Shown one piece after another: positions 21,037 to 48,671 of a stretch of DNA of 64,000 nt (the first letter of the stretch is position 1; every line of letters starts with the position of its first letter). Made by a program: the position numbers and the translations under genes. The notes under the pieces are model-generated. The model saw only the letters and a list, made by a program, of their open reading frames with translations. It did no database searches and was not told where the DNA came from. Location: NCBI RefSeq assembly GCF_900141825.1, contig NZ_FQYQ01000007.1:1-64000 (forward strand), written 5' to 3'. The DNA is from Pseudobutyrivibrio xylanivorans DSM 14809 (GTDB lineage: Bacteria; Bacillota; Clostridia; Lachnospirales; Lachnospiraceae).

Positions 21037-21125
21037 GCAAGTTACACTCTCAAGCCTGAGATATTACTCCGCTCAGCTGAAGAAAGCTTCGCTTGAGTAA
21101 CACTCAGAGCTTGATAGTTACTTGC
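21037..21125 (-). repeat. Dispersed structured element, copy A (3' of prfB)
   Basis: An 89-nt element with nested stems: GCAAGT/ACTTGC (21037-21042, 21120-21125), TCAAGC/GCTTGA, CTGAG/CTCAG (21056-21060, 21103-21107) and TTACT/AGTAA. It shares its loop and junction bases with copies B and C while the stem bases differ. It starts 5 bases past the prfB stop. Strand is assumed from the neighbouring genes. Confidence 0.75.
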
Positions 21126-21129
21126 TAGT

Positions 21130-22267
21130 TTAATCGTCTACGTTAGCGCCACGGTCTGGGCAACCTAATGATAACCATTTCAGGTACGCATTCATGAACG
21201 GTGTGAGTTTTCCATCAAGAACTGCATCGGCATTTCCTGATTCCTCTCCTGTGCGAAGATCTTTGACCATGGTGTAAGGCTGAAGGACATAGGAGCGGAT
21301 TTGGTTGCCCCATCCGATTTCTGATACCTCACCACGAATACCACTGGCCTTGGCTGCGTTCTCCTCCTGCTTTAAAAGAAGAAGCTTTGTCTTCAACATC
21401 TGCATAGCCTTGTCCTTATTTTGGAACTGGCTTCGCTCGTTCTGGCAGGTAACAACTATTCCTGTTGGGAAATGGGTAATGCGGATAGCCGAGCTTGTCT
21501 TATTGATATGCTGACCACCGGCACCTGATGAACGATAAGTATCGATACGGATATCCTCATCCTTAATCTCTACATCAACATCCTCTTCGATATCAGGCAT
21601 TACATCACAGCTGGCAAAGGATGTCTGTCGCTTTCCCTGTGCATTAAATGGGGAAATTCTAACCAATCTGTGGATACCCTTTTCTGATTTTAGATATCCA
21701 TAGGCATTTTCACCATTTACCTGGAATGTAACTGATTTTATTCCCGCTTCATCACCTTCCTGGTAATCAAGCTCATCCAAAGCAAAGCCCATATCAGAAG
21801 CCCAGCGGCTGTACATTCTGTAAAGCATCTGTACCCAATCACAAGCCTCAACACCGCCTGCTCCTGAGTGTAATGTAACAATGGCACTATCACCATCATA
21901 CTCGCCAGAAAGAAGTGTCTTCATTCTGAGAGTCTCTAAATCTGTTTCAAACTCTTCTATAAGAAGAGCAACAGTATCAACTATCTCCTGGTCCTCTTCC
22001 TCATTTCCAAGCTCAATGTAATCTTCTATTTCTTTATATAAGTCTTCAAGCTTATCTATGACTGCAACGTCATCCTTCATGGATTTGAGCTCTTTCATCT
22101 TGGCTGTAGATGTGGTAGCATCTGTCCAAAAATCTGGAGCCTCCATCTCGCGCTCAAGCTCTTCTATGCGAGCTTTCTTGGCTGCGACGTCAAAGTGAAT
22201 CCCTCACTTCCGTCATAGAGTTTTTTTGCGACGTAAGTCGCTGCTTGAACTGATCAAGTTCTATCAC
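21130..22267 (-). CDS. prfB: Peptide chain release factor 2, with programmed +1 frameshift
   Basis: Translation starts at GTG 22267 after AGAGGTG, reads 25 codons, meets an in-frame TGA as codon 26 (22192-22190), and must shift +1 at CTT-TGA-C to continue as LDVAAKKARIEELE and on to 21130. The product is 378 residues. It recognises UGA and UAA stop codons. SSGAGGQHINKT contains the GGQ catalytic motif, and the tripeptide SPF is in RISPFNAQGKR. RF2 controls its own synthesis through this UGA, and a GAGGGAT stretch upstream of the slip site resembles the internal Shine-Dalgarno stimulator. Confidence 0.96.
22190..22204 (-). other. Programmed +1 frameshift site in prfB
   Basis: Minus-strand sequence GAGGGATTCACTTTGAC covers an SD-like block, the slippery CTT and the in-frame TGA followed by C, a weak termination context. 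The shift at codon 26 is in the same position as in E. coli prfB. Confidence 0.93.
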
Positions 22268-22288
22268 GAAATCACCTCTTTCCAGTCC

Positions 22289-22372
22289 GCTGGTTACGGC
22301 AACAAGCCTTATATTTCTCCGCTCATCTAACACGATTCGCTCAAGAAACATAAGAGCTTGATTCCTACCAGC
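22289..22372 (-). repeat. Dispersed structured element, copy B (between the S41 protease gene and prfB)
   Basis: 84 nt, aligned with copies A and C over the whole length. Stems: GCTGG/CCAGC (22289-22293, 22368-22372), CAAGC/GCTTG, CTTAT/ATAAG (22308-22312, 22350-22354), TTTCT/AGAAA (22314-22318, 22344-22348). It lies 7 bases upstream of the prfB RBS. A TATAAT-like -10 at 22429-22434 could place it inside the prfB leader. Confidence 0.72.
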
Positions 22373-22437
22373 TCATCTATTATTACGCTTTAAACCCAAT
22401 GCCTGATAACTATAAGCTATTTTTACATATTATACGA

Positions 22438-23736
22438 TTATTTCTCTGATAATACGTCGAGTGCCTTCTGGATTTGATTATCTAAGTCTACACTATAAGC
22501 GTCGTCTTCGCCACCCTGAAATTCGTACTCGAGTTCGATATCTGGAGCGATTCCTTTTCCGTGGATGCATTCGCCACTTGGAGTGTAATATGTCTGTGTT
22601 GTAAGCTTTAATGCTGAACCATCGCTAAGTGGAATTGTAGACTGAACAATACCCTTACCAAAAGTATTTGTACCAATGATTGTGCCATAGTCAAAATCTC
22701 TGATGGCACCTGTAAAAATCTCTGCTGCTGAAGCTGTATTTCCATTTACAAGAACTACCATAGGAATATCCTTTGATGAACCTTCATCAGAAAGGAAATC
22801 TTCACGATGACCTGCCTTGTCCATTGTGTAAACAACAGTGCCCTTTGGAAGGAGATAATCAAGCATCTCCACCACCGAATCAAGTAATCCGCCACCATTG
22901 TTTCTCATATCAAACACAACTGATACCATTCCTTGCTTTTCAAGATCCTTGTAAGCCGCTACAAAGTCTTTATATGTATGCTCTGTAAACTGAGATACAG
23001 CGATATAACCAACATTTCCCTCAAGCATCTGATACTCAACAGTAGGTGTGGCAATGGATGCTCTGGTACATACCATTGTCTGCTCTTCGCCATCTCTTGA
23101 AATAACAAGTTCAACATCAGTGCCTTCCTCGCCTCGAATGTGCTGAACAAAAGTATCAAGTCCTTCATCAGTTGCAAGGTATCCATCTGCAGAAACAATA
23201 TAATCGCCTTCCTTTAGTCCAGCCTTCTCTGCAGGTGTTTCTTTGTAAACCTTTGTAATAGTAACTGCGCCTGTCTCAGCATTCTTCTGAAGAAGCGCTC
23301 CTATTCCTGCGTAATTTCCAGTGAGGGTAGCCATCAAATCCTCGTACTCCTCTGCTGTGTAGTATTCAGAATATGGATCATCCAAACTCTCTACAACTCC
23401 TTTATAAACGCCATTTACAAGCTTATCATTATCAACATCCTGATAGTAATATGTCTCTATTACAGAAAGAATAGTACTAAATTTTGAATCTCCAGACTCT
23501 CCGCCCTGAAGAGACTCTAATACCTCTTTAGAGGACTCGTCCTTAAAGGAAATTCTTGAACCTATTAATCCAAGTCCAATAATAGCTGTAGCAACACAGC
23601 CTACTACTATTCCTAAGAATCCAACTAAAAATATAGGCCATTTCTTAGGCTTAGGCTGAACCTTTTCTTCAAAGTAATAATTTACTGTCTCTGGATCTAC
23701 TACCTTCCCAACTCGTTCATTCTGATCTTCAAACAT
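22438..23736 (-). CDS. S41 family C-terminal processing peptidase
   Basis: 432 residues. N-terminal membrane anchor at about residues 34-56 after a Lys/Pro-rich cytoplasmic segment, so the protease faces outside. A PDZ domain follows (AGIGALLQ...ETPAEKAGLKEGDYI, about 140-215). The S41 catalytic core has VFDMRNNGGGLLDSVVEML and the serine/lysine pair in NGNTASAAEIFTGA ... TFGKGIVQS. It belongs to the CtpA/CtpB family. Gene order ftsE-ftsX-ctp is common in Firmicutes and suggests a role in envelope remodelling. Confidence 0.93.
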   Translation of the reverse strand: MFEDQNERVGKVVDPETVNYYFEEKVQPKPKKWPIFLVGFLGIVVGCVATAIIGLGLIGSRISFKDESSKEVLESLQGGESGDSKFSTILSVIETYYYQDVDNDKLVNGVYKGVVESLDDPYSEYYTAEEYEDLMATLTGNYAGIGALLQKNAETGAVTITKVYKETPAEKAGLKEGDYIVSADGYLATDEGLDTFVQHIRGEEGTDVELVISRDGEEQTMVCTRASIATPTVEYQMLEGNVGYIAVSQFTEHTYKDFVAAYKDLEKQGMVSVVFDMRNNGGGLLDSVVEMLDYLLPKGTVVYTMDKAGHREDFLSDEGSSKDIPMVVLVNGNTASAAEIFTGAIRDFDYGTIIGTNTFGKGIVQSTIPLSDGSALKLTTQTYYTPSGECIHGKGIAPDIELEYEFQGGEDDAYSVDLDNQIQKALDVLSEK

Positions 23737-23759
23737 TATGTACCTCCATTATATATAGA

Positions 23760-23785
23760 AGTGCCTCAGCATCCGCCAAGGCACT
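23760..23785 (-). other. Hairpin between ftsX and the S41 protease gene
   Basis: AGTGCCT/AGGCACT with a 12-base loop on the minus strand, without a following T-run. It may be a processing or weak attenuation site. Confidence 0.45.
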
Positions 23786-23805
23786 CCCTAAATAAACATT
23801 TTTAA

Positions 23806-24714
23806 CTAAACTCTTAAATGTTTGTGCAATGTTACACGAGAACCGAACCAGCCAATTCCGATACCAAGTATGAGAGAAATAGGAACCAAAGTTCTAAAAA
23901 TTTCTTCTACTGGAATAAATGTAACCATATTGCTAAGGAAATTGAATTCAGAACTAGCATATTCAATTACCTTTTCATAAATAAAGAACAGAAGAACAAG
24001 AGGAATGATTGAACCTATCAAGCCAATGAAAACACCCTCTACTACAAATGGAGCTCTAACGAAAGCATCTTTCGCACCAATGAGCTTCATGATAGCAATC
24101 TCTTCTCTTCTAACTGAAATGCCAACCATAACAGTATTGCTGATAAGGAAAACCGATACAGCAAGAAGTATGATGACAATCGCCATAGATACAATTGTAA
24201 TGGCTCTGTTGATATCTGTAAGTGTTTTTGCAGCTACCTCAGACTGATTTACCTGACGAATACCGTCAAGTCCATTAAGGAAGGAAACCAGTGTTGGCTG
24301 CATAGCTACATCATTAAGATATATCTCATAGTTTGCTGAGTTGGCAAGTGGATTGTCATCTGCAAATCCAGCTGCAAGCTCCTCATTTCCACCAAAGTAT
24401 TCTTCCTGATAATCTGCCCAAGCCTGCTCAGCGGAAATGTAATTATAACTTTTTACTTCTACGCGCTTCTTTATTTCATTACCAATCTCATCTATACGCT
24501 GCTGAGATATTCCTTCATCAAAGAAAACTGTAACTGCAACACCTTCCTCTGCGGATCTTACCATAGCCTGGAAATTTGTTCCCAACGCATAGAAAATACC
24601 GAAAAGGAAAATACATGCTGTCATTGTAGCGATTGAAGCAAGTGAGAACATCTTGTTTCTCCAAATGTTCTTTAAACCTTGTCCCAGGTTGTAAATGTGG
24701 GTACTAATCTTCAT
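23806..24714 (-). CDS. ftsX: Cell division permease FtsX
   Basis: 302 residues from the ATG at 24714, preceded by GGGAGGTG; an ATG 7 codons upstream is less well placed. Four membrane segments: one at about residues 23-43 and three in the C-terminal half, with a large extracellular domain (about 44-165) between the first and second. FtsX with FtsE transmits a signal across the membrane to activate peptidoglycan hydrolases. It overlaps ftsE by 11 bases. Confidence 0.94.
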   Translation of the reverse strand: MKISTHIYNLGQGLKNIWRNKMFSLASIATMTACIFLFGIFYALGTNFQAMVRSAEEGVAVTVFFDEGISQQRIDEIGNEIKKRVEVKSYNYISAEQAWADYQEEYFGGNEELAAGFADDNPLANSANYEIYLNDVAMQPTLVSFLNGLDGIRQVNQSEVAAKTLTDINRAITIVSMAIVIILLAVSVFLISNTVMVGISVRREEIAIMKLIGAKDAFVRAPFVVEGVFIGLIGSIIPLVLLFFIYEKVIEYASSEFNFLSNMVTFIPVEEIFRTLVPISLILGIGIGWFGSRVTLHKHLRV

Positions 24715-25384
24715 AGTTGTCACCTCCCACATCACTTACTACAACACCTTTTTTGATTGTAATAACTCTCTTATTCATGGCTCTGACGATTTCCATATTG
24801 TGTGTTACAACAACAACTGTTGTACCACGCTGATTAATTTCGTCAAGAAGTCTCATGATTTCCCATGTGTTATCACTATCAAGATTTCCAGTAGGCTCAT
24901 CAGCCAGAATAATCTTTGGCTCGTTAACAAGCGCTCTTGCTATAGCAACACGCTGCTGCTCTCCACCGGAAAGCTGACTAGGCTTTGACTTATATTTTGC
25001 TGCAAGTCCTACAAGAGATAACATTGTAGGAACCTTTTTCTTTATTTCACGATTTGAACGTTCAACTACCTTCATAGCAAATGCAACATTTTCATATACA
25101 TTTCTATCCGGCAGAAGACGGAAGTTTTGGAATACTACGCCAACATTCCTACGATACATAGGAACCTTTTTGTGAGTAACCTTTTTTAAATCCTGACCAT
25201 TAATATAAATCTTGCCTTTGGTAGGCTCCAATTCTTTCAATAACAATCTGATAAGGGTAGACTTACCAGAGCCACTATCTCCAACAACAAAAACGAATTC
25301 GCCTGGATCAATGTGAATAGTTACGTCCTCAAGAGCAGGTTTGCCAGCCTCATAGGACTTACTAACATGATCTAATCGTATCAA
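24704..25384 (-). CDS. ftsE: Cell division ATP-binding protein FtsE
   Basis: 226 residues, ABC ATPase. Walker [10 protein letters not shown], the [17 protein letters not shown]-loop region typical of FtsE, signature [14 protein letters not shown], and Walker [13 protein letters not shown]. Translation starts at a TTG (25384) 7 bases after GAGG, an uncommon start codon. Partner of FtsX immediately downstream. Confidence 0.95.
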
Positions 25385-25415
25385 TTCTATACCTCATTTC
25401 CAAACTAACTAATAT

Positions 25416-26504
25416 CTAGAACTTTTCACTTTCCATATACTTCATGTATTTTACTACCATTAAAGCAATCTTGAAAGTAATTGCATCCTCGAATACACGC
25501 AAATCAAGGCCTGTGCTCTTCTCCAACTTATCTAGTCTGTATACAAGAGTATTTCTATGAATGTAGAGCTGGCGTGATGTCTCTGAAACGTTCAGGCTAT
25601 TCTCAAAGAACTTACTAATAGTTGTAAGTGTTTCCTCATCAAAATCATCTGGAGATTTGTTTTCAAAAATCTCAGAGATAAACATTCTACAAAGTGGAAT
25701 AGGAAGCTGATAAATAAGACGACCAATTCCAAGCTGAGAATATGCGATAACATTCTGATCGTTAAAGAAGATTTTGCCTACATCCATAGCCATAGAAGCT
25801 TCTTTATAAGAACGTGAAACTTCTTTGATTTCTCCTACAACAGTACCGTAAGATACTCTTACCTTCTTAGTGTCCTTATCATGGAAAGCATCGATAATAA
25901 CTGCTGCTATCTTATCAATTTCTGCATTAGAATCGTTCTCTCCAAGTTCTTTGACAACAATGATATTTCTCTCATCAACTGCTGTAACGAAATCTTTGTT
26001 CTTTCCCCCAAATACAGAACGCACTCTATCGAGCTCATCGCCATCCTTCTCAGGACCTACTTCGACAATCATAACTACTCTACGTGCATTAATATCCACA
26101 TGTAGCTTCTTAGAACGATTGTAGATATCAACAAGAAGTAAGTTATCTAATAATAAATTCTTGATGAAATTATCCTTATCAAAGCGTTCCTTATAAGCAA
26201 TCATCAGCTCCTGAATCTGGAAAGCTGCAATCTTACCAATAGTAGAAGACTCCTCATTATCGCCTAAAGCTAAAACAACAAACTCTAACTGCTGATCGTC
26301 AAATACTTTGAAAAAATGACAACCTAATGCGACCTGACTTTCAGCCTCAGAAGCCGCAAAAACAGCCACTGCATCTGAGTACTGTGCAGTGTCCCCAAAT
26401 GTTGCTGCGCACATGACACCATCAGAATCCATAACTGCTAAGTCTATTTTAGTCAGCTGATGAAGCCCTTCTAGTGTATTTTGCATAATTTGATTCGAAA
26501 TCAT
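25416..26504 (-). CDS. PucR/CdaR-type transcriptional regulator
   Basis: 362 residues. The C-terminal 60 residues carry the PucR helix-turn-helix (FFENSLNVSETSRQLYIHRNTLVYRLDKLEK). The middle has a GGDEF-like CdaR segment (VRVSYGTVVGEIKEVSRSYKEASMAMDVG). The N-terminal sensor domain (1-130) is unassigned. Such proteins often activate catabolic genes, but none is adjacent. Only 31 bases separate it from ftsE, so co-transcription is possible. The ligand is unknown. Confidence 0.85.
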   Translation of the reverse strand: MISNQIMQNTLEGLHQLTKIDLAVMDSDGVMCAATFGDTAQYSDAVAVFAASEAESQVALGCHFFKVFDDQQLEFVVLALGDNEESSTIGKIAAFQIQELMIAYKERFDKDNFIKNLLLDNLLLVDIYNRSKKLHVDINARRVVMIVEVGPEKDGDELDRVRSVFGGKNKDFVTAVDERNIIVVKELGENDSNAEIDKIAAVIIDAFHDKDTKKVRVSYGTVVGEIKEVSRSYKEASMAMDVGKIFFNDQNVIAYSQLGIGRLIYQLPIPLCRMFISEIFENKSPDDFDEETLTTISKFFENSLNVSETSRQLYIHRNTLVYRLDKLEKSTGLDLRVFEDAITFKIALMVVKYMKYMESEKF

Positions 26505-26818
26505 ATCGAATACCTCCTGAGTATATATGCAATATAAACAATGTAAAACTCCCTTTTTGCATACAAATTCACATAACCTATGCCTATTCTAATATAAATA
26601 ACCAAAAATGGGAATACTTATATTGTGATTTTTTATGCATATTTACAATTATACTCTATAAATTTTTTTGTATGGTTTCACATAATTACCAAATGGCAGT
26701 TATATTGTCAGATAATACTCAGATGTTTCAGATAAAATTCCTTCTCTTCCAAAGTCAAGAGTTTTTAGCATTTTCACAAGTTTTGTAGATTTAGGACAAA
26801 ACAATTGTTCCAGTTCAT
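26505..26818. other. A/T-rich regulatory gap upstream of the PucR-type gene
   Basis: About 310 bases with no reading frame of merit. A weak promoter-like pair TTGTAA/CAATAT is visible on the minus strand near 26620-26650. Otherwise I see nothing definite. Confidence 0.4.
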
Positions 26819-26869
26819 TGTGGATAACTTTTCATATTAGTTCACAATTATTGTGGATAAAGTGGATAA
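26819..26869 (-). promoter_or_regulatory. Cluster of three DnaA-box-like sites
   Basis: TTATCCACA occurs exactly on the minus strand at 26827-26819 and 26860-26852. A one-mismatch copy TTATCCACT is at 26869-26861, directly abutting the second. All three point the same way in very A/T-rich DNA. They may bind DnaA to regulate or titrate. No origin-linked genes (dnaA, dnaN, rpmH) are near, so I do not call an origin. Confidence 0.6.
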
Positions 26870-27059
26870 GACGTGTACAAGTCCGTTTTTTCGCTTTAAT
26901 TGTCCAATTTTTTGTTGATAAAATATTGCAAAACACACAACTGATAATTATATGTATTTTTAACATTCAATTCTTTTGTGCAAAATTATCTAAAAACTTT
27001 CTGTAATGCCAAATATTATTTTCTGACAATTATTAAAATAGTTTGACTATATGGGCGTA

Positions 27060-27088
27060 AGAAAAGGCATCACGCTTGGTGATGCCTT
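27060..27088 (-). terminator. Terminator of the NlpC/P60 gene
   Basis: AAGGCATCAC/GTGATGCCTT with a 5-base loop, followed by TTCTT on the minus strand, 24 bases after the stop. Confidence 0.85.
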
Positions 27089-27111
27089 AATATTTAAATT
27101 ATCTTTTCTGC

Positions 27112-28338
27112 TTAGAAGATTCTTCTAATAGCTAAGATTTTCTTATAGTTTACGTTTGAATATGTAATACCTGTTCTTTTATTTGATGCATGGAGAAGTG
27201 TACCATTACCAGCATAAATACCAACATGGCCTGAGTAACAAACAATATCTCCTGGCTGCATTTCATCATAAGAAACACCATATCCAACGCTACGCATCGA
27301 GCTAGAAGAATGTGGAAGGCTAACACCAAATGCTGAATAGCAACTCATAACGAAACCTGAACAATCAGTACCGCCTGTGAGTGATGAACCTCCATACACA
27401 TATGGATTACCAACAAACTGTGATCCATAATTTACAACTGAACCACCGCCTGAACCTGATGGTGCAGCATAACTCTTACTAGATGAAGAAGATGATGACG
27501 ACTCAGACGACTTAGATGAAGCCTTTGATGCTGCAGCTGCTGTAGCCTTTCTAGCTGCTTCCTCTGCTGCCTTTCTCTCTGCTTCTTCCTTTGCTAAACG
27601 AGCCTGCTCAGCTTCTTTTGATTCTGCAACTGTGAAGTCTGTAGAAATATCAACATAATCTGTGCTGACATATCCTTCACCTTCATTACAGGTAACCTTT
27701 ACCCAACCGCTATCAATATCTGACTCATCGATAACAACAAGGTCATCACCAATAGGAAGTAAATCGATAACTGCTGAATCAGTAGATGCCGACTCTCTTA
27801 CATGAAGAGTAGTAGTAGTAACTGTAGCAAGACGCTGTGAAACCTGTTTAGCAAGCTCCTCATTGTTCTGTACAACGTACTCGCTCTTAACATAGCCTGT
27901 TACATCACCAGAAGTGATAAGTAACCATGTGCCATCTTCTGTTTCTACAGTATCTGAAACTGTAGCTGCTGAATTATTATAAAGCTTTCCAACGTATTCG
28001 CTCTCAGCCGAAGCTGTCTCGCGAATGTATACGTAATTATCAACCTGTGCGATAGCTATATTAGCGTATGGATTCTCTGCTGCAGCAACTGCATCAGCTC
28101 CATTATCTGCTAACTGTGAATCCGCTGCTATAACTGTTGCATTAGCAAGCATATCATTAACTGTAAGCTGTGCTCCTGCAAAAGCAGTGTAGTTTGTAGT
28201 CTCTAAAACGCCAGTAGCACTTGATAGTGCGCTAACACCCGATGTAGCACTAGCTGCATCCGAGGTAAGTGATATACTAGAAACAACGACGCAAGCAGCG
28301 ATGGTGTAGCTAACGGCTCTTGTCAAATTAAATCTCAT
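27112..28338 (-). CDS. Secreted SH3-domain NlpC/P60 peptidoglycan hydrolase
   Basis: 408 residues. Signal peptide at about 1-28 ending in SDAASA. Two bacterial SH3 domains (about 92-160 and 168-232) would bind wall peptides. An Ala/Glu/Lys- and then Ser-rich linker (about 235-300) leads to an NlpC/P60 domain. The catalytic Cys is in TDCSGF, one His in SGHVGIY and the next polar residue in LLHASN. It likely cleaves stem peptides. FtsEX, which activates related hydrolases such as CwlO, is encoded 2.4 kb away. RBS GGAGG. Confidence 0.93.
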   Translation of the reverse strand: MRFNLTRAVSYTIAACVVVSSISLTSDAASATSGVSALSSATGVLETTNYTAFAGAQLTVNDMLANATVIAADSQLADNGADAVAAAENPYANIAIAQVDNYVYIRETASAESEYVGKLYNNSAATVSDTVETEDGTWLLITSGDVTGYVKSEYVVQNNEELAKQVSQRLATVTTTTLHVRESASTDSAVIDLLPIGDDLVVIDESDIDSGWVKVTCNEGEGYVSTDYVDISTDFTVAESKEAEQARLAKEEAERKAAEEAARKATAAAASKASSKSSESSSSSSSSKSYAAPSGSGGGSVVNYGSQFVGNPYVYGGSSLTGGTDCSGFVMSCYSAFGVSLPHSSSSMRSVGYGVSYDEMQPGDIVCYSGHVGIYAGNGTLLHASNKRTGITYSNVNYKKILAIRRIF

Positions 28339-28387
28339 TATCGTAAGAAATCCTCCAATATGTTACAACTTTATTACAACTTTGTAT

Positions 28388-28416
28388 ATTATATAATCTG
28401 TTCTCTATCCTGTCAA
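28388..28416 (-). promoter_or_regulatory. Strong promoter of the NlpC/P60 gene
   Basis: Consensus TTGACA (28416-28411), 17 bases, TATAAT (28393-28388) on the minus strand, 50 bases before the start codon. It is the closest match to the sigma-A consensus in the window. Confidence 0.9.
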
Positions 28417-28476
28417 GTCTGGATTTTCTATTGCCATTCCAATGTTTCTTCACATGTGAGTCTTTGTAATATTTAG

Positions 28477-29385
28477 TTATCCTAAATAATGCTCTATGGA
28501 TGCAATAGAATTAGCTCCATCTGCAGTAGCTGTAATAACCTGCCTTAACTGTTTTGTTCTAACATCTCCAGCGGCATAAATACCTTTTATGGATGTAGAA
28601 CAAGTCTCATCTGCAATGATGTACCCATTTTCATCCTGTGCTGGCAATCCCTCAATCGCTCCTGTATTCGGAACATTGCCAACCGCTATAAATACACCGT
28701 CAAGATCAAAGTGTTGAATGTCATCTGTGTTTTTGTTTTTAACTTTGATGCCTTCGACTTTATCCTGTCCTAATATCTCCTCAACTGTAGAGTCGAAAAT
28801 AATCTGAATCTTATCCGATGCCTTTACCTGCTCCTGAAGTACTACAGCACCTCGGAATTCATCTCGACGATGAATCAGGTAGACTTTCTGACAGAATCTC
28901 GAAAGATAAATGGCATCCTCTAATGCAACATCTCCACCGCCTACAACAGCAACTACCTTATCCTTGAAAAAGGCTCCGTCGCATGTGGCACAATAGGACA
29001 CTCCCATTCCTGAAAGCTCTTCCTCACCTGGACATCCTAATTTTTTATTTGATGCGCCTGTAGCGATGATAACTGCTCTGGTTTCAAATGTAGCTTTCTT
29101 AGTGATAAGCTCTTTTGTGTTGCCCTTATCTATAATAGAAGTAACTCGTCCTCTGGCAAATTCCACATTAAGCTTTTCGCAGTGAGCCTTCATAGCCTCT
29201 GCCAAGCCTTCACCTGAGACACCTGGCATACCAGGATAATTATCAATCTCGTAAGTGCTAAGTATCTGTCCTCCGCTGATAGAACTGGTATCTAAGACAA
29301 GAATGTTTCTTCCCGCTCTCTTGCCATAGATAGCCGCCGCAAGTCCTGCTGGGCCTGCGCCAATAACAACTATGTCATAAATCAT
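28477..29385 (-). CDS. trxB: Thioredoxin reductase
   Basis: 302 residues. FAD loop GAGPAGLAAAIYGKRAG (9-25). Redox-active CATC at 132-135 in the NADPH domain. NADPH loop VGGGDVALEDA follows, and the C-terminal GIYAAGDVRTKQLRQ block closes the FAD site. It passes NADPH electrons to thioredoxin. RidA is encoded 18 bases upstream on the same transcript. Confidence 0.96.
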   Translation of the reverse strand: MIYDIVVIGAGPAGLAAAIYGKRAGRNILVLDTSSISGGQILSTYEIDNYPGMPGVSGEGLAEAMKAHCEKLNVEFARGRVTSIIDKGNTKELITKKATFETRAVIIATGASNKKLGCPGEEELSGMGVSYCATCDGAFFKDKVVAVVGGGDVALEDAIYLSRFCQKVYLIHRRDEFRGAVVLQEQVKASDKIQIIFDSTVEEILGQDKVEGIKVKNKNTDDIQHFDLDGVFIAVGNVPNTGAIEGLPAQDENGYIIADETCSTSIKGIYAAGDVRTKQLRQVITATADGANSIASIEHYLG

Positions 29386-29403
29386 AACCTATTCTCCAAA
29401 ATC

Positions 29404-29781: not shown

Positions 29782-29836
29782 ACCAATATCCTCCTTTTCT
29801 TCTCCCCTTATTTCATCCGCTGATATTACTGGTTAC

Positions 29837-29845: not shown

Positions 29846-29851
29846 CGTAAT

Positions 29852-35027: not shown

Positions 35028-37148
35028 CTAAACCTCGAAGATCATATCTCCATAGCTAGGCATTGGCCAAGCTTCCTTGTCTACAATCATTTCAAGGGCA
35101 TCTACTGGACGACGAAGGTCTTCCATAGCCTTTACAACATCTGAGTGATAGAAGTTTGCTTTCTCACAGCTAGATGCCTTCATAGTATATGCTTTCTCGT
35201 TAGTTTCCTTAAGGGTGATAAGAGCATCCTTAGCTTCACGTAAGTAATTAGATACCTTAACAAGAAGCTCCTTCTGTGTGCTTACATCAGCCTCAGGACA
35301 CGCGTCAGCGATTGTGCCAATAGAAAGTCCAAGCTCTGTAGCATAGCTGATTACAGCTGGAATAATCTGCTTAGAAGCCATATCAATCATTGTACGTGCT
35401 TCGATATTAATTGACTTAATATACTGCTCGTATTCGATTTCTGCACGAGATTCAAGCTCTACCTTAGAGAATACGCCAAACTTCTCAAACATTGAAACTG
35501 TAGCATCAGTTGTAAGAGCTGGAATAGCTTCAACAAGTGAGTTAATGCTTGGCAGACCTCTCTTCTCTGCCTCAGCAATCCATTCTTCACCGTATCCATT
35601 ACCATTGAATACGATACGCTGGTGCTCTGTAGCAAGCTTCTTAATCATATCGTGAACGGCTGAATCAAAATCCTTAGCCTTTTCAAGCTCATCACAAGCC
35701 TCGCTAAGAGCCTCTGCCATAATTGTATTTAAAACAACATTTGGCTCACCAACTGAATCCTGTGAACCCGGCATTCTGAACTCAAATTTGTTTCCAGTAA
35801 ATGCAAATGGGGATGTACGGTTTCTATCAGTAGCATCTTTTCTAAAATCTGGAAGAGTCTTGACACCTGTAGCAAGCTTTTCGCCCTTCTTTGATTTTGT
35901 AGCTGTACCTGTAGAGATAAGCTGAGTAAGAACGTCCTCAAGCTGCTCTCCAAGATATACAGAAATGATAACTGGAGGTGCCTCATTTCCGCCGAGACGC
36001 TGATCATTGCCAACATCTGATGCAGACTCACGAAGAAGATCTGCGTGACGGTCTACAGCCTTTAATACAAGGCAAAGAACAAGCAAGAACTGAATGTTCT
36101 CGTGTGGTGACTTGCCTGGCTCAAATAGATTGATGCCATCATCTGTAACAAGCGACCAATTGTTGTGCTTACCTGAACCGTTTACACCACTAAATGGTTT
36201 CTCATGAAGGAGACACTGAAGACCATGGCGATTAGCCACCTTTCTAAGAGTCTCCATAATAATCTGGTTGTGATCTACAGCAACGTTACACTGAGCATAG
36301 ATAGGTGCAAGCTCGTGCTGAGCTGGTGCGACCTCATTATGCTGTGTCTTAGATGAAACGCCAAGCTTCCAAAGCTCGATGTTTACATCGCGCATATATG
36401 CCTCAATACGCTCAGGAATAGAACCAAAGTAATGGTCGTCCATCTCCTGTCCTTTTGGTGGCATAGCGCCAAATAAAGTACGTCCTGTGTACATTAAATC
36501 CTTGCGTGCAAGATACATTTCACGATCTATAAGGAAATATTCCTGCTCAGCACCAACTGATGGTGTGACACGCTGTGATGTTGTGTTACCAAATAATCTA
36601 AGAAGACGAACTGCCTGCTCAGAAAGAATCTCCATTGAACGAAGAAGTGGAGTCTTCTGATCAAGTGCTTCGCCAGTGTATGAGCAGAAAGCTGTAGGAA
36701 TGCAAAGTGTTGCACCAGCTGCATCCTGTCTAACAAAAGCAGGAGAAGTTGGATCCCAGGCTGTATATCCTCTAGCTTCGAATGTGGCACGTAAACCACC
36801 TGAAGGGAATGATGATGCATCTGGCTCACCCTTAATTAATTCCTTACCTGAAAAGCTCATAAGAACCTTTCCTGATGGTAATGGAGCTGAAATGAAGGAA
36901 TCATGTTTTTCTGCTGTGATACCAGTAAGTGGTTGGAACCAATGAGTATAGTGAGTTGCACCTTTCTCAATTGCCCACTCTTTCATCTCATGAGCAATCA
37001 CATCTGCTGTCTCTAAATCTAGTTCTTTCCCCTCTGAGATAGTCTGCTTAAGCTTCTGATATGTCTTCTTTGGAAGGCGTTCCTGCATAACTGTATCGTT
37101 AAATACATTCTCTCCAAAGATGTCAGCCACATTAAAATATCGTTCCAT
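35028..37148 (-). CDS. glnN: Glutamine synthetase type III
   Basis: 706 residues, the length of the GSIII family found in Bacteroides and Clostridia (GSI is about 450). Key blocks: [16 protein letters not shown] in the N-terminal part, [10 protein letters not shown] for the metal site, [16 protein letters not shown], and [12 protein letters not shown] for ATP/ammonium. It condenses ammonia with glutamate using ATP. It is preceded by a hairpin-rich spacer after fba. Confidence 0.96.
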
Positions 37149-41212: not shown

Positions 41213-42144
41213 TTGACGTTCCTCCCGATAATTCTAACCTCTGGAGTAAGATGAACTCCAAACTTTTCATATACTTTCTCATCCACATCCTTCATAAGCT
41301 TTAATACATCTGAAGCTGTGGCATCTGATTTGTTAATAACAAATCCACAGTGTTTTTCAGAAACCTGTGCATTTCCTACAGTATAGCCTCTAAGTCCTGC
41401 ATCATCAATAAGTTTTCCAGCAAAAAATCCCTCAGGTCTCTTAAATGTTGAGCCAGCGCTAGGGAAATTAAGTGGTTGTTTCTCTATGCGTTTCTGACGG
41501 ATGTCTTCTATTGTCGCCTTAATCTCGGAAACATCTCCTGCAGCCAGCTGAAGCTTAGCCCCAAGTACAATTCCAGGTTTCTCCATAAGAACTGAATGTC
41601 TGTAAGATAAATCAAGCTTATCAACTGGAATTTCTTCCACCTGGCCATCAGCATTTAAAAGCTTAACCGATGTGAGAACATCCTTCATCTCCCCACCGTA
41701 GGCACCTGCATTCATATAAACAGCGCCACCGATAGAGCCTGGGATTCCTGATGCGAACTCTAGTCCTGTAAGCCCCACTTCTGCTGCGCGATTGGCAACT
41801 GATGAAAGCATGGCTCCAGCTTCCGCAAAAATCTCGCACTTTGCTTCGTCGATAATAACCTCTGATGAACTCTTGCCCATAGAAATAACTACACCTTCGA
41901 TTCCATCATCGGAAACAAGTAGATTACTTCCATTTCCTATTACCATGAATGGAACCTCTGAATCCTTCAAGAAGGCAATAAGAGGAACCACCTGAGAAAC
42001 AGATGGCTCCACATATATATCCGCAGGACCACCAATCCTGAAGGTAGTATGTTTCTTCATTGGTTCATCAAGAAGAAAATCTACCTCAGGAAATCGCTCC
42101 TGCAACTCATTATAAAAATCTTTTTTAGAAAAACTGTTATGCAT
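41209..42144 (-). CDS. murB: UDP-N-acetylenolpyruvoylglucosamine reductase
   Basis: 311 residues, FAD enzyme that makes UDP-N-acetylmuramic acid. TTFRIGGPADIYVEP (FAD site), IGNGSNLLVSDDGI, GIPGSIGGAVYMNAGAYGGEM, the catalytic Ser in AGSTFKRP, and VHLTPEVRIIG at the end. The RBS is weak, but the start overlaps the aminopeptidase stop by 8 bases, suggesting coupling. Confidence 0.96.
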   Translation of the reverse strand: MHNSFSKKDFYNELQERFPEVDFLLDEPMKKHTTFRIGGPADIYVEPSVSQVVPLIAFLKDSEVPFMVIGNGSNLLVSDDGIEGVVISMGKSSSEVIIDEAKCEIFAEAGAMLSSVANRAAEVGLTGLEFASGIPGSIGGAVYMNAGAYGGEMKDVLTSVKLLNADGQVEEIPVDKLDLSYRHSVLMEKPGIVLGAKLQLAAGDVSEIKATIEDIRQKRIEKQPLNFPSAGSTFKRPEGFFAGKLIDDAGLRGYTVGNAQVSEKHCGFVINKSDATASDVLKLMKDVDEKVYEKFGVHLTPEVRIIGRNVN

Positions 42145-43534
42145 ACTTAATAAATGCCTCGTATCCTAATAAAGCTTCGTATAAGTCTACCTTAGAAATG
42201 ATTTCGCATGGTGCGTGCATTGAAAGAACTGCAACGCCTGAATCAATTACCTGCATGTTGTAGTTACCCATGATGTAAGCGATTGTTCCGCCGCCACCCT
42301 GGTCTACCTTACCAAGCTCTGCTGTCTGCCAGCAAACCTTATCCTTATCCATGATTGCTCTAACCTCTCCAACATACTCTGCTGAAGCATCATTTGAACC
42401 ACTCTTTCCTCTTGCACCTGTGTACTTGTTAAATACAAGACCACGTCCAAGGTAAGCTGAATTGTTCTTTTCAAATGCTGATGCATAGTTCGGATCGAAA
42501 GCTGCAGATACATCTGAAGAAAGCACCTTGCAATTTGTAAGAGCTCTTCTAAGCTTAAGCTCTGAATAATCACCCATAAGGTTGAAAAGCTCTGCAAGTG
42601 TGTTTTCGAAGAACTTAGACTGCATACCTGTTGCACCAACAGAACCAATCTCTTCCTTATCAACAAGAAGTGCACAAGCTGTCTTTGAAAGCTTCTTTGT
42701 TGTATTGAGAAGTGCCATAAATGATGGGTAAGCACATACTCTGTCATCGTGACCATACCCTAAAATCATTGAACGATCGAAGCCGAAATCTCTTGCCTCA
42801 CCAGCTGGAACAACTTCGATTTCTGCTGAAATGAAATCTTCCTCTTCAATATCGTACTTTTCCTTGAGAAGCTTAAGGATATTCTTCTTAACAGATTCCT
42901 TTTCCTTCTCACCCTTTTTATCAAAACCTGGGATGCTGCCAACGATAATGTTAAGGTCTTCACCTTCTACTACCTTAGCGCCCTTTTTATCCATCTGATC
43001 AGCTGCAAGGTGGATAAGAAGATCTGAAATACCAAATACTGGATCTGAAGCATCCTCACCTACGTTAACCTTTACAACCTCTCCTGTCTTCTTAACAAGA
43101 ACACCGTGAAGAGCAAGTGGAATAGTAACCCACTGATATTTCTTGATACCGCCATAGTAGTGTGTGTCAAGCATGGCAATATCTGAATCCTCGTATAATG
43201 GATTCTGCTTTAAATCCATACGAGGGCTATCAATATGTGCACCCAGGATATTAAGACCGTTCTCAAGAGACTCAGAACCGATATTAAATACAGCCATCAT
43301 CTTGCCCTTGTTTACAGCATATACCTTGTCACCAGCCTTAAGCTTTGTATTCTTTTCAATTGCATCCTCAAGATTAATATATCCTGCTTTCTCTGCCTTC
43401 TCTACAAAGAAATCGATGCATTCTCTTTCTGTCTTGCACTGTGAAAGGAACTTTCTATAATCCTCTCCAAATGCCATTACCTTTTTCAAATCCTTTTCTG
43501 AAGTATACTTACTCCATGCGTTAGTGCGTTCCAT
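42137..43534 (-). CDS. M18 family aminopeptidase
   Basis: 465 residues. NILGAHIDSPRMDLKQ has the first zinc His and Asp. VDKEEIGSVGATGM gives the catalytic Glu pair, and SMHAPCEIISKVDLYEA carries the last zinc His. It is a cytosolic aminopeptidase I homologue removing N-terminal residues. It precedes murB. Confidence 0.94.
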   Translation of the reverse strand: MERTNAWSKYTSEKDLKKVMAFGEDYRKFLSQCKTERECIDFFVEKAEKAGYINLEDAIEKNTKLKAGDKVYAVNKGKMMAVFNIGSESLENGLNILGAHIDSPRMDLKQNPLYEDSDIAMLDTHYYGGIKKYQWVTIPLALHGVLVKKTGEVVKVNVGEDASDPVFGISDLLIHLAADQMDKKGAKVVEGEDLNIIVGSIPGFDKKGEKEKESVKKNILKLLKEKYDIEEEDFISAEIEVVPAGEARDFGFDRSMILGYGHDDRVCAYPSFMALLNTTKKLSKTACALLVDKEEIGSVGATGMQSKFFENTLAELFNLMGDYSELKLRRALTNCKVLSSDVSAAFDPNYASAFEKNNSAYLGRGLVFNKYTGARGKSGSNDASAEYVGEVRAIMDKDKVCWQTAELGKVDQGGGGTIAYIMGNYNMQVIDSGVAVLSMHAPCEIISKVDLYEALLGYEAFIKYA

Positions 43535-43612
43535 TTCTTAAAATAACTCCTACTTCTAAATAAATATTTCTTAATATATCTCAATCACCCTTTAAAGGGC
43601 AATTATTTTTTC

Positions 43613-44548
43613 TTACTGCTCACCTGCAATATTGTTCTGAACTCTGCGATAAAGCTCTTCTGCTGCGTTGTAACCCATCTTTTTCTGACGATGGTTAACA
43701 GCTGCTGCCTCACAGATAATTGCAAGATTTCGACCTGGCCTGATTGGAAGTGAATGACATGTAACATCAATACCAAGAATGTTCATGTACTCATCTGTCA
43801 TACCAAGACGGTCATATTCCTTTTCCTTGCTCCAATCTTCAAGCTTGATAACAAGGTCGATTCTCTGCTCATCCTTAACAGCCTCAACACCGTAAAGAGA
43901 CTTAACATCGATGATACCGATGCCTCTAAGCTCGATTAAGTACTGAGTGATAGATGGAGCGCGACCATATAATCTCTCGTTGTTAGGGCGACGAATCTCA
44001 ACAACATCATCAGATACAAGTCTGTGACCACGTCTTATAAGCTCAAGTGCTGCCTCTGACTTACCGATACCAGACTCACCTGTAATAAGAAGACCTTCGC
44101 CATATACATCAACCAATACACCATGAATAGTAGTGTATGGAGCAAAGTCCTTATTTAACGAGAAGATAAGTGCTGACATAAATTCTGATGTAGCACGGTC
44201 TGTTCCAAGGATTGGAACATTTGCCTTAACAGCTGCCTTTAAAAGAACATCTTCTGGCTTTTCTCCTCTACAGAAAATGATACAAGGAATATCATATGAG
44301 AAAAGCTTGGCAAAGCTCTCTGCCTTTTCCTCATCTGACTTCTTTGATATATATGCAGCTTCAACATTACCAATTACCTGAATACGGCTTGGCTCAAAAT
44401 GCTCATAGAATCCATGAAGCTGAAGAGCTGGTCTGTTGACATCAGAACAAGTAACCTTTACCTCCCCCAAGTTTAATTCAGGTGTAAAATTAGTAAGATT
44501 AAATCTTTCCTGGACAGTAGCTACTGTAACATATTTGTTTGCTGCCAT
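43613..44548 (-). CDS. hprK: HPr kinase/phosphorylase
   Basis: 311 residues. Walker A GESGIGKS at 157-164, followed by ELIRRGHRLVSDD. The LRGIGIIDVKSLYG signature lies at about 205. N-terminal domain up to 130. It phosphorylates the serine of HPr and Crh in response to fructose bisphosphate and ATP, and removes it when phosphate is high. A Ser-45 target, crh, lies 4 kb downstream. Confidence 0.96.
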   Translation of the reverse strand: MAANKYVTVATVQERFNLTNFTPELNLGEVKVTCSDVNRPALQLHGFYEHFEPSRIQVIGNVEAAYISKKSDEEKAESFAKLFSYDIPCIIFCRGEKPEDVLLKAAVKANVPILGTDRATSEFMSALIFSLNKDFAPYTTIHGVLVDVYGEGLLITGESGIGKSEAALELIRRGHRLVSDDVVEIRRPNNERLYGRAPSITQYLIELRGIGIIDVKSLYGVEAVKDEQRIDLVIKLEDWSKEKEYDRLGMTDEYMNILGIDVTCHSLPIRPGRNLAIICEAAAVNHRQKKMGYNAAEELYRRVQNNIAGEQ

Positions 44549-44603
44549 AAAATTCCCTCCATTATAAAAGATATCGCTTTATATATGATATATCATTTTT
44601 TAA

Positions 44604-46454
44604 TTAATTCATAGGGTGAAAGTAATTGAATACATTGGCGGCTGCTTCCTGATTCATTCCATCTGTGGCTGCCAGTTCTTCAATTGTAGCTTCTGCCATT
44701 TTTTCTGCCGACACAAACCTTTTCATAAGAGCTTTTCTTCTCTTTGGTCCAATTCCTGGAATATCATCTAAGAAGCTGTGAACCTGTCCTTTGCTTCTGA
44801 GACTTCTGTGATATTCAATTGCAAATCTATGGGCCTCGTCCTGTAGTCTTGTGATAAGCTTGAAGCCCTCGGAATGAGTATCGATAGGAAGCTCCTGATC
44901 TCTAAAATATAATCCTCTGGTTCTATGGTGATCGTCCTTAACCATACCAGCAATAGGTATGTGAAGACCTAATTCTGCCAGAACCTGCTCCGCAATATGG
45001 ATCTGACCCTTACCACCATCCATCATGATTACATCAGGAAATTTCGTGAAGCTATCTTCAATCACTCCGCCATTCTCTTCCAGCTCCTCTAATCCGTGCG
45101 AAAAACGGCGTTTAAGAACTTCATACATAGATGCGTAATCATTTGGGCCCTCAACAGTTTTAATCTTGAATTTGCGGTAATCTGAGCGTTTGGGCTTACC
45201 TTTCTCGAATACTACCATGGAACCAACTGACTGAAATCCTGAAATGTTGGAAATATCGAAGGCTTCCATACGGCTGGCGCCTTCAAGGCCAAGAAGAGTC
45301 GATATTTCTTTCATAGCACCGATAGTGCGGCTCTCTTCCTTTTTAATCTTTTCTCTGTCCTGATCCAAAACCATCTGAGCATTTTTAGCCGCCAGCTCCA
45401 CAAGCTTTTCCTTGGCTCCTCGCTTAGGCGTTCTAAGATAAACTCTGGCACCTTTTTTATTTGTCAGCCAGTTTTCTATTAGCTCTGCTTCCTCTAAATC
45501 ATACTGGACATATATTTCCCTAGGAACAAATGGCGTTCCTGTATAGTAGTCCTTCAAGAAATATTGGAGCAGATCCTCATCTGTATCATCCACTCTTACA
45601 TTGATAAAGAAATGCTCTCGTCCAATCATTTTGCCACCGCGGATAAAGAATACCTGAACAACGGCATCTTCTGTCGCTTTTGCCATGGCAATAATGTCTC
45701 TATCCTCACCATCCAGCTGTGTGGCTTTCTGTCTGCCTGCGCATGCCTTTACCGACTCGATTAAATCGCGATAAAGTGCAGCTTTCTCAAAATCTAATTC
45801 CTCTGAAGCGGCAAGCATTTTTGTTTCTAAATCTTTTAGCGTATCGTAGTAATCTCCATTTAAAAACTCGATTACCTTATCTACATTTTTCCGATATTCA
45901 TCCTTATCAACGTTTCCCTGACATGGACCCAGACATTGGCCAATATGATAATTCAGGCAAGGTCTGTTCTTGCCAAAATTCTCCGGCAACTTCTGATTGC
46001 AGGTACGAATCTTATATAATTTCTGAACCAAATCAATTGTGTCATGAACTGCTCCCGCCGAAGTAAATGGGCCAAAGAATTTGCTTCCATTCTTTTTGAG
46101 TCTACGGGAAAAGAGAACCCTCGGATAAGCCTCTGTGAGGGTAACTTCGATGTAAGGATAGGTTTTATCATCACGAAGCATTGTGTTGTACTTTGGACGA
46201 TATTCCTTTATTAGATTGCACTCTAAAATGAGGGCTTCCATCTCGGAATCAGTGACGATGAATTCAAAATAATCGATATTCTGAACCATCTGCTTTTTCT
46301 TTAGGCCCTCATCGTGACTAGGCTGAAAGTATTGACGGACTCTGTTGCGTAAGGACAACGCTTTTCCCACGTAAATAATCTCATCATTTTTTCCGTGCAT
46401 TAGATAAACTCCCGGTTGGTCCGGGAGTTTACTTAAGTCTTGTTCTGTTACCAT
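44604..46454 (-). CDS. uvrC: Excinuclease ABC subunit C
   Basis: 616 residues. GIY-YIG nuclease at the N-terminus ([18 protein letters not shown], about 15-32). A UvrB-binding UVR motif lies near residue 210 ([22 protein letters not shown]-like). A central Cys-containing GQCLGPC stretch, an RNase H-like endonuclease domain with AFDISN and MMDGGKGQ, and C-terminal helix-hairpin-helix ([17 protein letters not shown]) complete the layout. It makes both incisions in nucleotide excision repair. It starts 4 bases after ftsH. Confidence 0.96.
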
Positions 46455-46457
46455 AAA

Positions 46458-48473
46458 TTACTCATCAAAAATACTATCTGTAACTACGTTATTAGGGTCA
46501 TCTTCAAAGACGCTCTTAAACTGTGATGCAGGGTCTTTCTCCTTGTCTGCATCTGGGTCTGGAATACCCTTAATCTCTCTGAAAATCTTCATGAATTCTT
46601 TACCAGTAATAGTCTCGTTTTCGAAAAGATACTCAGAAATCTTATCAAGGCTTTCCATGTTCTCAGAAAGAAGTTCCTTAGCCTTAGCATAGGCTTCAGT
46701 AATCATCTTAAGAACTTCGTCATCAATCTGGGCTGCTGTGTTCTCACCGCAGATAAGAGAAGCTCTTCCGTCAAGATACTGACTCTCTACTGTAGCAAGT
46801 CCCATCATGCCAAACTTCTCTGACATACCAAAGCGAGTAACCATAGCTCTGGCAATCTTTGTAGCCTGCTCAATATCGTTTGCTGCACCTGATGTAAACG
46901 AACCAAACTTGATATCCTCGGCAGCTCTACCACCCATGTATGTAACAATCTTCGCAATGAGCTCATCCTTTGTCTCAAGGAACTTCTCCTCCTCTGGAGT
47001 CTGAAGTGTGTAGCCCAAAGCACCCATTGTACGTGGTACGATTGTAATCTTCTGAACTGGCTCAGCATCCTTCTGGAGTGCTGAAACAAGTGCGTGACCA
47101 ACCTCGTGATAAGAAACGATTCTACGCTCCTTCTCACTCATTGCTCTATCCTTCTTCTCCTTGCCACCTACAGCAACGAGCTCGAAGGCCTCAAATAAAT
47201 CTTTCTGATTAACAAACTTTCGCTTATCCTTAACTGCAAGGATAGCTGCCTCGTTGATAATGTTGGCAAGGTCAGAACCTACAAGTCCAACAGATGCAAG
47301 AGCAAGTGCATCTAAATCAACCGACTCATCCATCTTAACATCCTTGGCATGAACCTTAAGGATTTCAAGACGTCCCTTCTGGTCTGGTCGATCTACGATA
47401 ATTCGTCTATCGAAACGTCCTGGACGAAGAAGTGCTTTATCAAGAACCTCTGGACGGTTTGTAGCTGCAAGAATAAGAAGACCCTTGTTAGAATCAAATC
47501 CGTCCATTTCTGAAAGGAGCTGATTAAGTGTCTGCTCACGCTCATCATTACCACCGCCATAGTGAGCATCACGGCTCTTACCAATGGCATCAATCTCATC
47601 GATGAATACGATACAAGGTGCTACCTTCTGCGCCTCCTTGAAAAGGTCACGTACACGTGATGCACCTACACCAACGAACATCTCTACGAAATCTGAACCT
47701 GCAAGTGAGAAGAATGGAACACCAGCTTCCCCGGCAACTGCCTTTGCAAGAAGTGTCTTACCTGTTCCAGGAGGGCCTACTAAAAGTGCACCCTTTGGAA
47801 GCTTAGCACCGATTTCCGTATATTTCTTAGGATTGTGAAGGAAATCAACCATTTCCTGAACTGATTCCTTAGCCTCATCCTGACCTGCAACATCCTTAAA
47901 TGTGATACCTGTTGCTTTCTCCATGTTATAGAGCTTGGCATTTGATTTGCCAACACCCATTGGGCCTGCGCCCATCTTCTTCATAAGGTAGCCTAGGATT
48001 ACCCAAAGCAATACCAATGGAAGGATAAAGGATAGGATGTTGTAAATAATAGCCGCTGTAGAATCAGGAATTGTACCCTTAATCTCGACTTTATGCTTTT
48101 TAAGAAGTGGCATCAACTCATCATCCTGTACACCTGGGTACGCGGTATAAAGAGTCGACTTTGCTTTCTGACCTGTTGCCTCATAAAGCTGCTGAAGCTT
48201 AGCTGCCTCCTCATCTGAAACACCATAGGTCTCGCCCTCTTTTAATTCGATGTTAATAACATCATCCTTGAAGGTGACGCTATCTACCTTATCATCTTCA
48301 ACCAGCGTCAAGAACTCTGTGTATGTGATTTCTTGATTTCCGCCAGAACTTGAGCCCTTATACATCATGCTTGTAAAGAAAAGCGCTATAAGTACAAGAA
48401 TTCCTAATGTATAAAAAGGCTGACGATTATTCTTTTTATCTCCACCATTCTGGTTGTTATTATTTTCGTTCAC
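46458..48473 (-). CDS. ftsH: ATP-dependent zinc metalloprotease FtsH
   Basis: 671 residues. Start codon is GTG (48473) after GGAGG. Two membrane segments (about 21-37 and 140-163) flank an extracytoplasmic domain. The AAA module has Walker A GPPGTGKT at 233-240 and Walker B VFIDEIDA. Zinc protease motif HEVGH at 456-460. It degrades misassembled membrane proteins and regulators. The cytoplasmic C-terminus is acidic. Confidence 0.97.
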
Positions 48474-48586
48474 ATCTGCCTCCGAATCGTAATTTAATTT
48501 TGTACGATACTAATTTATCATATATTGTTGCAAAAGTATCGATTTTAATACTTTTTTAATACATTTAAAATAATAAAACCACTTGT

Positions 48587-48671
48587 TACGCTCTCAAGCC
48601 TTGTCATTACTCCGCTCAACGTAGAATGTTTCGCTTTAGTAATGTCAAGAGCTTGATAGCTACAAGTGGTT
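48587..48671 (-). repeat. Dispersed structured element, copy C (3' of the ABC ATPase gene)
   Basis: 85 nt with a 10-bp outer stem AACCACTTGT/ACAAGTGGTT (48587-48596, 48662-48671), inner TCAAGC/GCTTGA and TTGnCATTACT/AGTAATGnCAA. Conserved loop bases match copies A and B. Its minus-strand exit is followed by TTTTATTATTTT, so this copy may also terminate the ABC operon. It starts 12 bases after the ATPase stop. Confidence 0.75.

Follow-up and report, generated by a model that had tools for sequence, protein, structure and literature searches.

The closest relatives in kind of the repeat reported here come from four papers. The bcr1-bcr18 repeats of the Bacillus cereus group are group-specific mobile features of 100-400 bp, among which bcr1 has a mean of 39 and up to 130 copies per genome, and their mobility has been tied to a site-specific-recombination-like process at TTTAT motifs (PMC6542083). 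The BOX, RUP and SPRITE elements of Streptococcus pneumoniae are short and interspersed, have strong predicted RNA folds, are transcribed as operon extensions and are possible terminators (PMC3049150). The repetitive extragenic palindromes (REPs) measure 20-40 bp, carry an unpaired terminal GTAG and go with RAYT transposases; the word Firmicutes does not occur in the text of that paper (PMC3733652). The Firmicutes stem-loop families Clop-1, Clot-1 and Bhal-1, from other genera, comprise 74-93 nt with a conserved stem-loop (PMC2267715). Here we describe a hairpin element of about 84-91 nt, three copies of which lie on the minus strand of a 64,000-nucleotide stretch of Pseudobutyrivibrio xylanivorans DSM 14809 (contig NZ_FQYQ01000007.1, positions 1 to 64,000; hereafter the window). 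We consider it likely that these copies belong to a family of non-autonomous, mobile, dispersed imperfect hairpins of the genus Pseudobutyrivibrio.

The comparison with these accounts was made by description, not by sequence. In kind, the Pseudobutyrivibrio family is REP/BOX/bcr1-like; what looks unusual in it is the exchange of cores on base stems that are paired locally. Like the bcr repeats, it is group-specific and of high copy number, with a conserved fold and mobile features; unlike them, it has no TTTAT motif that stands out by eye, and its base stem changes independently of its core. As with BOX, RUP and SPRITE, the elements are short, interspersed and strongly folding, but BOX is modular (boxA, boxB, boxC) and its ends have been likened to an insertion sequence (PMC3049150); neither modules nor a related insertion sequence were found here. 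A GTAR motif near the 5′ base, the hairpin and the high copy number recall the GTAG REPs, whereas the length of 84-91 nt and the pairing of the GT of GTAR with AC place the element outside the REP description. Clop-1, Clot-1 and Bhal-1 are alike in size and stem-loop, but they belong to different genera, and our model hits outside Pseudobutyrivibrio were none in the samples searched. Integron attC sites have R boxes of the form RYYYAAC / GTTRRRY; set by eye against this consensus, the constant GTA ... GTAAC of our element lies in the opposite arrangement.

Structure and distribution of the repeat

Copy 1 (21037-21125) lies immediately 3′ of the stop codon (TAA, 21132-21130) of a gene that we take, from its sequence, to be prfB, and its base stem pairs GCAAGT (21125-21120) with ACTTGC (21042-21037). 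Copy 2 (22289-22372), with the base stem GCTGGT (22372-22367) / ACCAGC (22294-22289), stands between the upstream gene (open reading frame (ORF) 22438-23736) and prfB, and lies 3′ of the preceding gene. Copy 3 (48577-48671) comes after ORF 48683-49480; its extended base stem, AACCACTTGT (48671-48662) / ACAAGTGGTT (48586-48577), is followed by a T-rich run, and it reads as the putative intrinsic terminator of that ORF. A preliminary description, made from the window alone, had aligned the three minus-strand copies end to end through shared motifs and had noted that two of them flank prfB, both of which we confirmed; its limits were exact for copies 1 and 2, and about 10 nt too short at the 3′ end for copy 3.

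Each copy is predicted to form a single long imperfect hairpin. With short flanks included, the minimum free energies are −44.2, −39.6 and −43.3 kcal/mol for copies 1, 2 and 3, respectively, against means of −25.4, −22.8 and −19.05 for shuffled sequences (z from −5.6 to −8.1), and none of the 200 shuffles of any copy folded as well. In the base stem, P1, the inner two pairs are almost constant (GT/AC) and the outer pairs vary freely. P1 is followed by an internal loop, which is asymmetric (A / GTA), then by a long stem that contains CAAGC/GCTTG, an inner part that carries the motif CTnnAGCGAA / TGAGCGGAG in most copies, and a variable tip. For a wider view, 228 distinct copies were collected with their flanks, of which 223 remained once 5 antisense duplicates had been dropped. 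The mismatched A opposite GTA beside the base stem is the most constant feature (91-100% per position), and GTA...GTAAC is intact in 201/223 copies; the inner motif is looser, AGCGAR occurring with GAGCG in 165/223, and subfamilies differ in it.

The compensatory stem changes seen among the three copies, a number small enough to mislead, recur, with significant covariation, in larger sets. Among 61 distinct copies, which include the three starting ones, 96.8% of the pair cells are paired (78.2% in shuffles), both sides have changed in 28 of the 32 pairs, and the covariation score is 0.518, against 0.162 in shuffles and at most 0.079 when the partner columns are slid by 1-3. In a set of 126 distinct copies, which has 13 sequences in common with the first, 95.4% are paired, the score is 0.548 against 0.153, and both-side changes occur in 29 of the 32 pairs. 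All five covariation measures lay above all 500 shuffles in both sets, and the slide by 1-3 columns destroyed the signal. Since both sets were aligned to models descended from the three starting copies, they are biased in favour of the structure, though too little to account for the observed margin.

The further claim that such covariation, by itself, points to selection for structure at each site was not borne out. In a small sample of eight hand-picked pairs of the same copy across two genomes, seven of which show differences, 17 pair positions have changed: 9 are broken in one genome, 6 carry a one-sided change that preserves the pairing (G-U types), and 2 are compensated; 7 further changes lie at unpaired positions. 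This speaks for drift of the individual copies, the covariation having come down through copies that fold well: it is strong between copies, which is what one would expect if copies with a good fold spread and older ones decay. More generally, covariation among dispersed copies need not imply selection at each site.

The impression that the element is undescribed has stood so far. Rfam release 15 gave no match over the three copies at the gathering cut-off; with E-values up to 10, copies 1 and 2 still had none, and copy 3 had two weak hits (16.6 and 13.5 bits, for cut-offs of 50 and 119). Literature searches, whose coverage left out most subscription papers, returned no description of such a repeat in Pseudobutyrivibrio. 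The proposed covariance-model search, with a model of the three copies, did find further copies, 43 in total in the 3.42 Mb genome of the strain (G000). Among the 25 genus genomes searched, this one included, 23 hold 5 to 104 copies, and two incomplete assemblies (G007 and G021) hold none; 16/16 genomes of other families in the order have none either. A pattern scan of named contigs returned at least 111 stretches and, among the 80 listed with titles, 79 are labelled Pseudobutyrivibrio and one Butyrivibrio fibrisolvens 16/4. A model of 67 copies matched 2 of 397 genomes across the family, both of the same genus, and 1 of 398 across the phylum, the genome of origin; these two samples overlap, and 11 candidates were scored per genome, so that single or divergent copies elsewhere could escape. 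Plasmids (queried with copy 2), phages (queried with copy 3) and viral contigs (scanned with the pattern) gave zero matches. As far as searched, the family is restricted to the genus Pseudobutyrivibrio, and it is a real and apparently undescribed family of structured dispersed repeats.

Turnover and genomic context of the copies

These copies do not represent a single RNA conserved at fixed sites: comparison of related genomes showed different copies at the same site, independence of core and base stem, nesting, differences in orientation and loss of the hairpin centre. Upstream of prfB, a full copy is present in 11/21 genomes, with mostly unrelated cores (shared ones in G005 and G014, and in G008 and G015), the other genomes having remnants or nothing. 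At the site of copy 1, the near relative G005 retains the 3′ end only (GAGTGTAACTTGCG), and G010 has nothing. Nested copies, which are unambiguous insertions, occur upstream of prfB in G008 and G015 and at the loci L168, L135 and L085, and hairpin-centre deletions were recognised by eye in G000, G005, G020 and G022. In syntenic stretches from five genomes (123-180 kb each, 38 copies altogether), a site near 85 kb is occupied in all five by related base stems with four kinds of core (those of G000 and G010 are similar).

This turnover weighs heavily on another explanation, a cis-regulatory RNA (riboswitch or protein-binding leader) with a regulon of some 40-100 genes in the genus. The conserved basal internal loop, the excellent covariation and the many sense-oriented copies close to a ribosome site would suit it. 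However, occupancy per gene is not conserved, as seen upstream of prfB, many copies are terminator-like or stand between gene ends, and copies followed at one site gather pair-breaking changes. We regard this explanation as very improbable, and rejected it as the leading one because of the occupancy turnover at orthologous genes.

Similar changes were found at terminator positions. The copy 3 site was examined in 29 genomes and is readable in 27, about 24 of which have, by eye, a terminator-like hairpin; it holds the element in G000 and G010, an inverted element in G003, G001 and G013, one with a short tip in G439 and a stub in G438. Near 35 kb, a terminator between convergent genes could be read in about 18 genomes: G003 has an element there and G013 three tandem elements, the element base and lower stem enclose a different hairpin in G015 and G008, and G017 has plain hairpins with GTAAC tips. 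The three tandem terminator-embedded copies of G013 (G013:C22 ~36409-36761; L254:16409-16761) and the two plain GTAAC-tipped terminators of its sister G017 could represent gains or precise losses. Separately, the core orientation is opposite at the same place between window copy 3 and G003 (L031), and between position 646467 of G012 and position 251172 of G020; in the latter case, matched by eye, the arms are identical, as if the core had been inverted across its own base stem.

Over the prfB region, the sister genomes G012 (70 copies, 2.7 Mb contig) and G020 (35 copies) share about 94% identity. Twenty-one non-terminator sites could be read in both genomes. The element is the same at 4 of them and different at 1; at 5, one of the two genomes has a remnant or another insert; and at the remaining 11, G012 has an element (in one case a tip-less stub) of which G020 shows no trace. 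Another three copies lack a readable counterpart. At 8 of these 11 sites, the stop and start codons of G020 overlap or are separated by no more than 3 nt (one site is unmeasurable). At terminator-type sites, the hairpin is retained in both genomes at 6/6, one being coreless and one inverted (matched by eye), which suggests that terminator-type copies are useful as terminators. Turnover between the sister genomes, by gains or losses, is thereby established.

With regard to genes, the copies occur in two contexts. The position just 3′ of genes, given in the preliminary description, holds for its three copies and is half of the context, many other copies lying just 5′ of a gene start. Copies 1 and 2 belong to class I, without stem extension, and copy 3 to class II, with an extended stem. 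In 98/127 class I copies (zero extra base pairs), the base stem ends at its foot in GC...GC; the flanks are correlated, as TGA/GGA (50), ATA/GAG (21) or TAA/GTA (8), counted among the same 127 with antisense duplicates not yet removed. Copy 2 itself is flanked by TGA (22375-22373) and GGA (22288-22286), followed by a Shine-Dalgarno-like AAGAGGTG (22280-22273) and the GTG start codon of prfB at 22267, about 21 nt from the end of the copy. In the 119 class I copies whose flanks are long enough, a gene of the same strand starts within 200 nt on the 3′ side in 89, and a gene of the opposite strand starts on the 5′ side in 23, the latter figure being partly background owing to crude ORF calling; with a stricter limit of 60 nt, the numbers are 79/127 and 7/127, respectively. 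For class II (at least 3 extra pairs), again within 200 nt, they are 16/65 and 17/65; gene ends stand on both sides in 43/65, and 54/65 have, on the 5′ side, the end of a gene of the same strand.

At least 3 extra base pairs occur in 68/226 copies, and the flanks of these copies are on average A-rich on the left and T-rich on the right (up to 5 antisense duplicates included). A run of at least four T's within 10 nt after the stem is present in only 25/228 copies, and a stable hairpin with a T run at a gene end is found in a subset of copies. The family resembles intrinsic terminators in its extended-stem copies, followed by T's, at terminator positions (by eye), but the loop of an ordinary terminator lacks a structured core of 80 nt. 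At L036, L037, L047 and L048, oppositely oriented copies were also noticed in pairs, about 10-20 bp apart. A proposal that the gene-junction copies bring their own ribosome site was dropped, as nearly the same ribosome site is found in other genomes with no element there.

Core, base stem and possible modes of movement

The independence of core and base stem was quantified on 39 same-length pairs of copies with cores at least 95% identical, 25 of which have unrelated flanks (best local flank score below 30; the 95th percentile of random pairs is 21). In these 25 pairs, the difference per nt is 0.038 in the cores and 0.645 in the outer arms; the arms differ in 25/25, and both copies are fully paired in the arms in 22/25. 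The 14 pairs with similar flanks differ by 0.015 per nt in the cores and 0.125 in the arms, with arm changes in 5. At one orthologous site, L009 and L054 have the same base stem and flanks and a different core; at another, L154 and L138 have a common core on different base stems, and L022 matches them in neither. Homology-limited exchange of cores between copies, or transfer of cores into existing hairpins, would each explain much of this independence. If the base stem truly changes independently of the core, we know of no REP, miniature inverted-repeat transposable element (MITE) or intron that moves in such a way.

Hairpins are targets of quasipalindrome correction and of SbcCD cleavage. The covariation could come from mutation instead of selection, hairpin-templated repair keeping the arms of a palindromic repeat complementary. 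This proposal agrees with the arms, which remain paired where they differ between copies with near-identical cores (5 of the 14 similar-flank pairs included), and with the pair-breaking drift at single sites and the hairpin-centre deletions at several sites. Nevertheless, correction would erase mismatches such as the A / GTA loop, which is nearly invariant within the mostly intact GTA...GTAAC frame, and we judge the proposal rather unlikely. At least this loop must then be selected, in the element or in its spread.

Regarding a possible mover, the Y1 (HUH) transposase has matches in 10/29 genus genomes and is absent from 19/29, including G000, with its 43 copies, and G012. The reverse transcriptase RVT_1 is found in 15/29 and absent from 14/29, including G012, and IS110 is above the cut-off in 16/29 and below it or absent in 13/29, again including G012. 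These absences set the family apart from RAYT systems and from retroelement-mobilised RNA. RAYT, reverse transcriptase and IS110 were rejected as movers, as G012 has 70 copies and none of the three above the cut-off. The absences also bear on the classical MITE, moved in trans by an insertion-sequence transposase with matching terminal repeats. While size, copy number, hairpin shape and nesting all fit a MITE, Y1 and IS110, the only transposase families examined, are absent or below the cut-off in many genomes, no longer parent with the same ends occurs within 5 kb in the 3.3 Mb of sequence scanned, and unrelated-site copies with the same core do not share base stems. A MITE seems an unlikely identity for the element.

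Alternatively, the element might insert at, or convert, the tip of any hairpin, the host stem becoming the base stem. Several sites look as this would predict: the three elements of G013 sit in terminators of the form CCCCTAGTA...GTAACTAGGGG (the right end of the middle one is degraded), where its sister G017 has the plain CCCCTTAGTAACTAAGGGG and CCCCCTAGTAACTAGGGGG; a second terminator has a common stem with and without the core; the inner copy of L135 uses, by eye, the stem of the outer copy as its base stem; and L009 and L054 combine one site and base stem with different cores. However, the plain hairpins could just as well be what centre deletions left behind, GTAAC-tipped palindromes are otherwise rare (2/633, both at the G013/G017 site), and a GTAAC tip occurs in 0/9 of the TGA/GGA-framed hairpins listed with tips below 60 nt (the ATA- and TAA-framed ones were counted, not read). 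On balance, we hold such core transfer to be unlikely. The rarity of GTAAC palindromes also led us to reject a general rule of precise insertion at them. A related idea, which we put forward only tentatively, is that of a mobile hairpin tip, in which a structured core (GTA...GTAAC, about 75-81 nt) would pass between hairpins (terminators, junction hairpins or other copies), the recipient stem becoming the base, with a complementary base stem made or kept locally; this would occur without Y1, reverse transcriptase or IS110, perhaps through hairpin-provoked breaks and template switching.

We favour the reading of the family as non-autonomous mobile hairpins. The elements would spread as selfish hairpins, the folded strand or its replication being the likely substrate, would be tolerated between genes, and would be transcribed with these genes as a stem-loop. 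An element with an extended base stem and T's would act as a terminator and be retained, whereas copies upstream of gene starts would be mostly transient. The following points weigh against this reading. First, we infer transcription and termination of the copies from their context only. Second, no mover was found among the enzyme families searched (Y1, RVT_1 and IS110), and the scan for a longer parent, described above, was negative. Third, a search by eye for target-site duplications at empty and occupied sites gave nothing consistent, the direction of change being uncertain. Fourth, 20 of the 25 unrelated-site pairs come from one ten-copy cluster, and are thus not independent. Fifth, the copies present in G012 and missing from G020 are not near-identical to any other sampled G012 copy (36 of the 70 were sampled): their nearest G012 copy differs at 6-32 core columns in ten cases and at 46 for the stub. 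Many of them are probably old copies lost from G020, not recent gains. Sixth, at the two G012-only junctions that were checked in other genomes, the change could have run either way: at one, G016 has the flanks of G012, and the junction of G020 could derive from a deletion; at the other, G020, G437 and G021 (the last a zero-copy genome) have tight junctions. The reading of the G012-only copies as recent insertions into tight junctions was dropped in view of these junctions in other genomes and of the nearest-copy distances.

The high turnover between sister species makes movement testable, in a host that is a cultured rumen genus. The data suggest how selfish hairpins can remodel terminators and gene junctions.

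prfB and other elements

The presumed prfB gene (release factor 2; 21130-22267, minus strand), the neighbour of copies 1 and 2, lies outside the element. It starts with GTG at 22267 and has a programmed frameshift at CTTTGAC, so that a plain ORF list gives its longer second part only (21130-22146). The part downstream of the frameshift was matched in 29/29 genus genomes.

Two other hairpin families were noticed. A second repeat family (GGCAAGCGCGAGCAGG...CCTGCGGGAGCATG) is present in the window at 16000-16096 (minus strand), and also at gene junctions of G006, G002, G015 and G023; in G006, by eye, a main-element copy carries it within its tip, and Rfam matched 0/6 of the loci searched. A third family, TTAGATGGT...GCATCTTA(T/C)GTA...GAGCG(A/C)AAGCGTG, occurs at the gene junctions L357, L365, L358, L388, L389 and L391, and its middle motif at 19 distinct places in the sequence scanned; in G010, it lies inside the TTTAGATGAGCC...GGCGGA frame common to many class I copies. 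Finally, the window contains, at 7509-7649 (minus strand), a Clostridiales-1 RNA (RF01699), a small RNA of Rfam, with a score of 59.4 bits.

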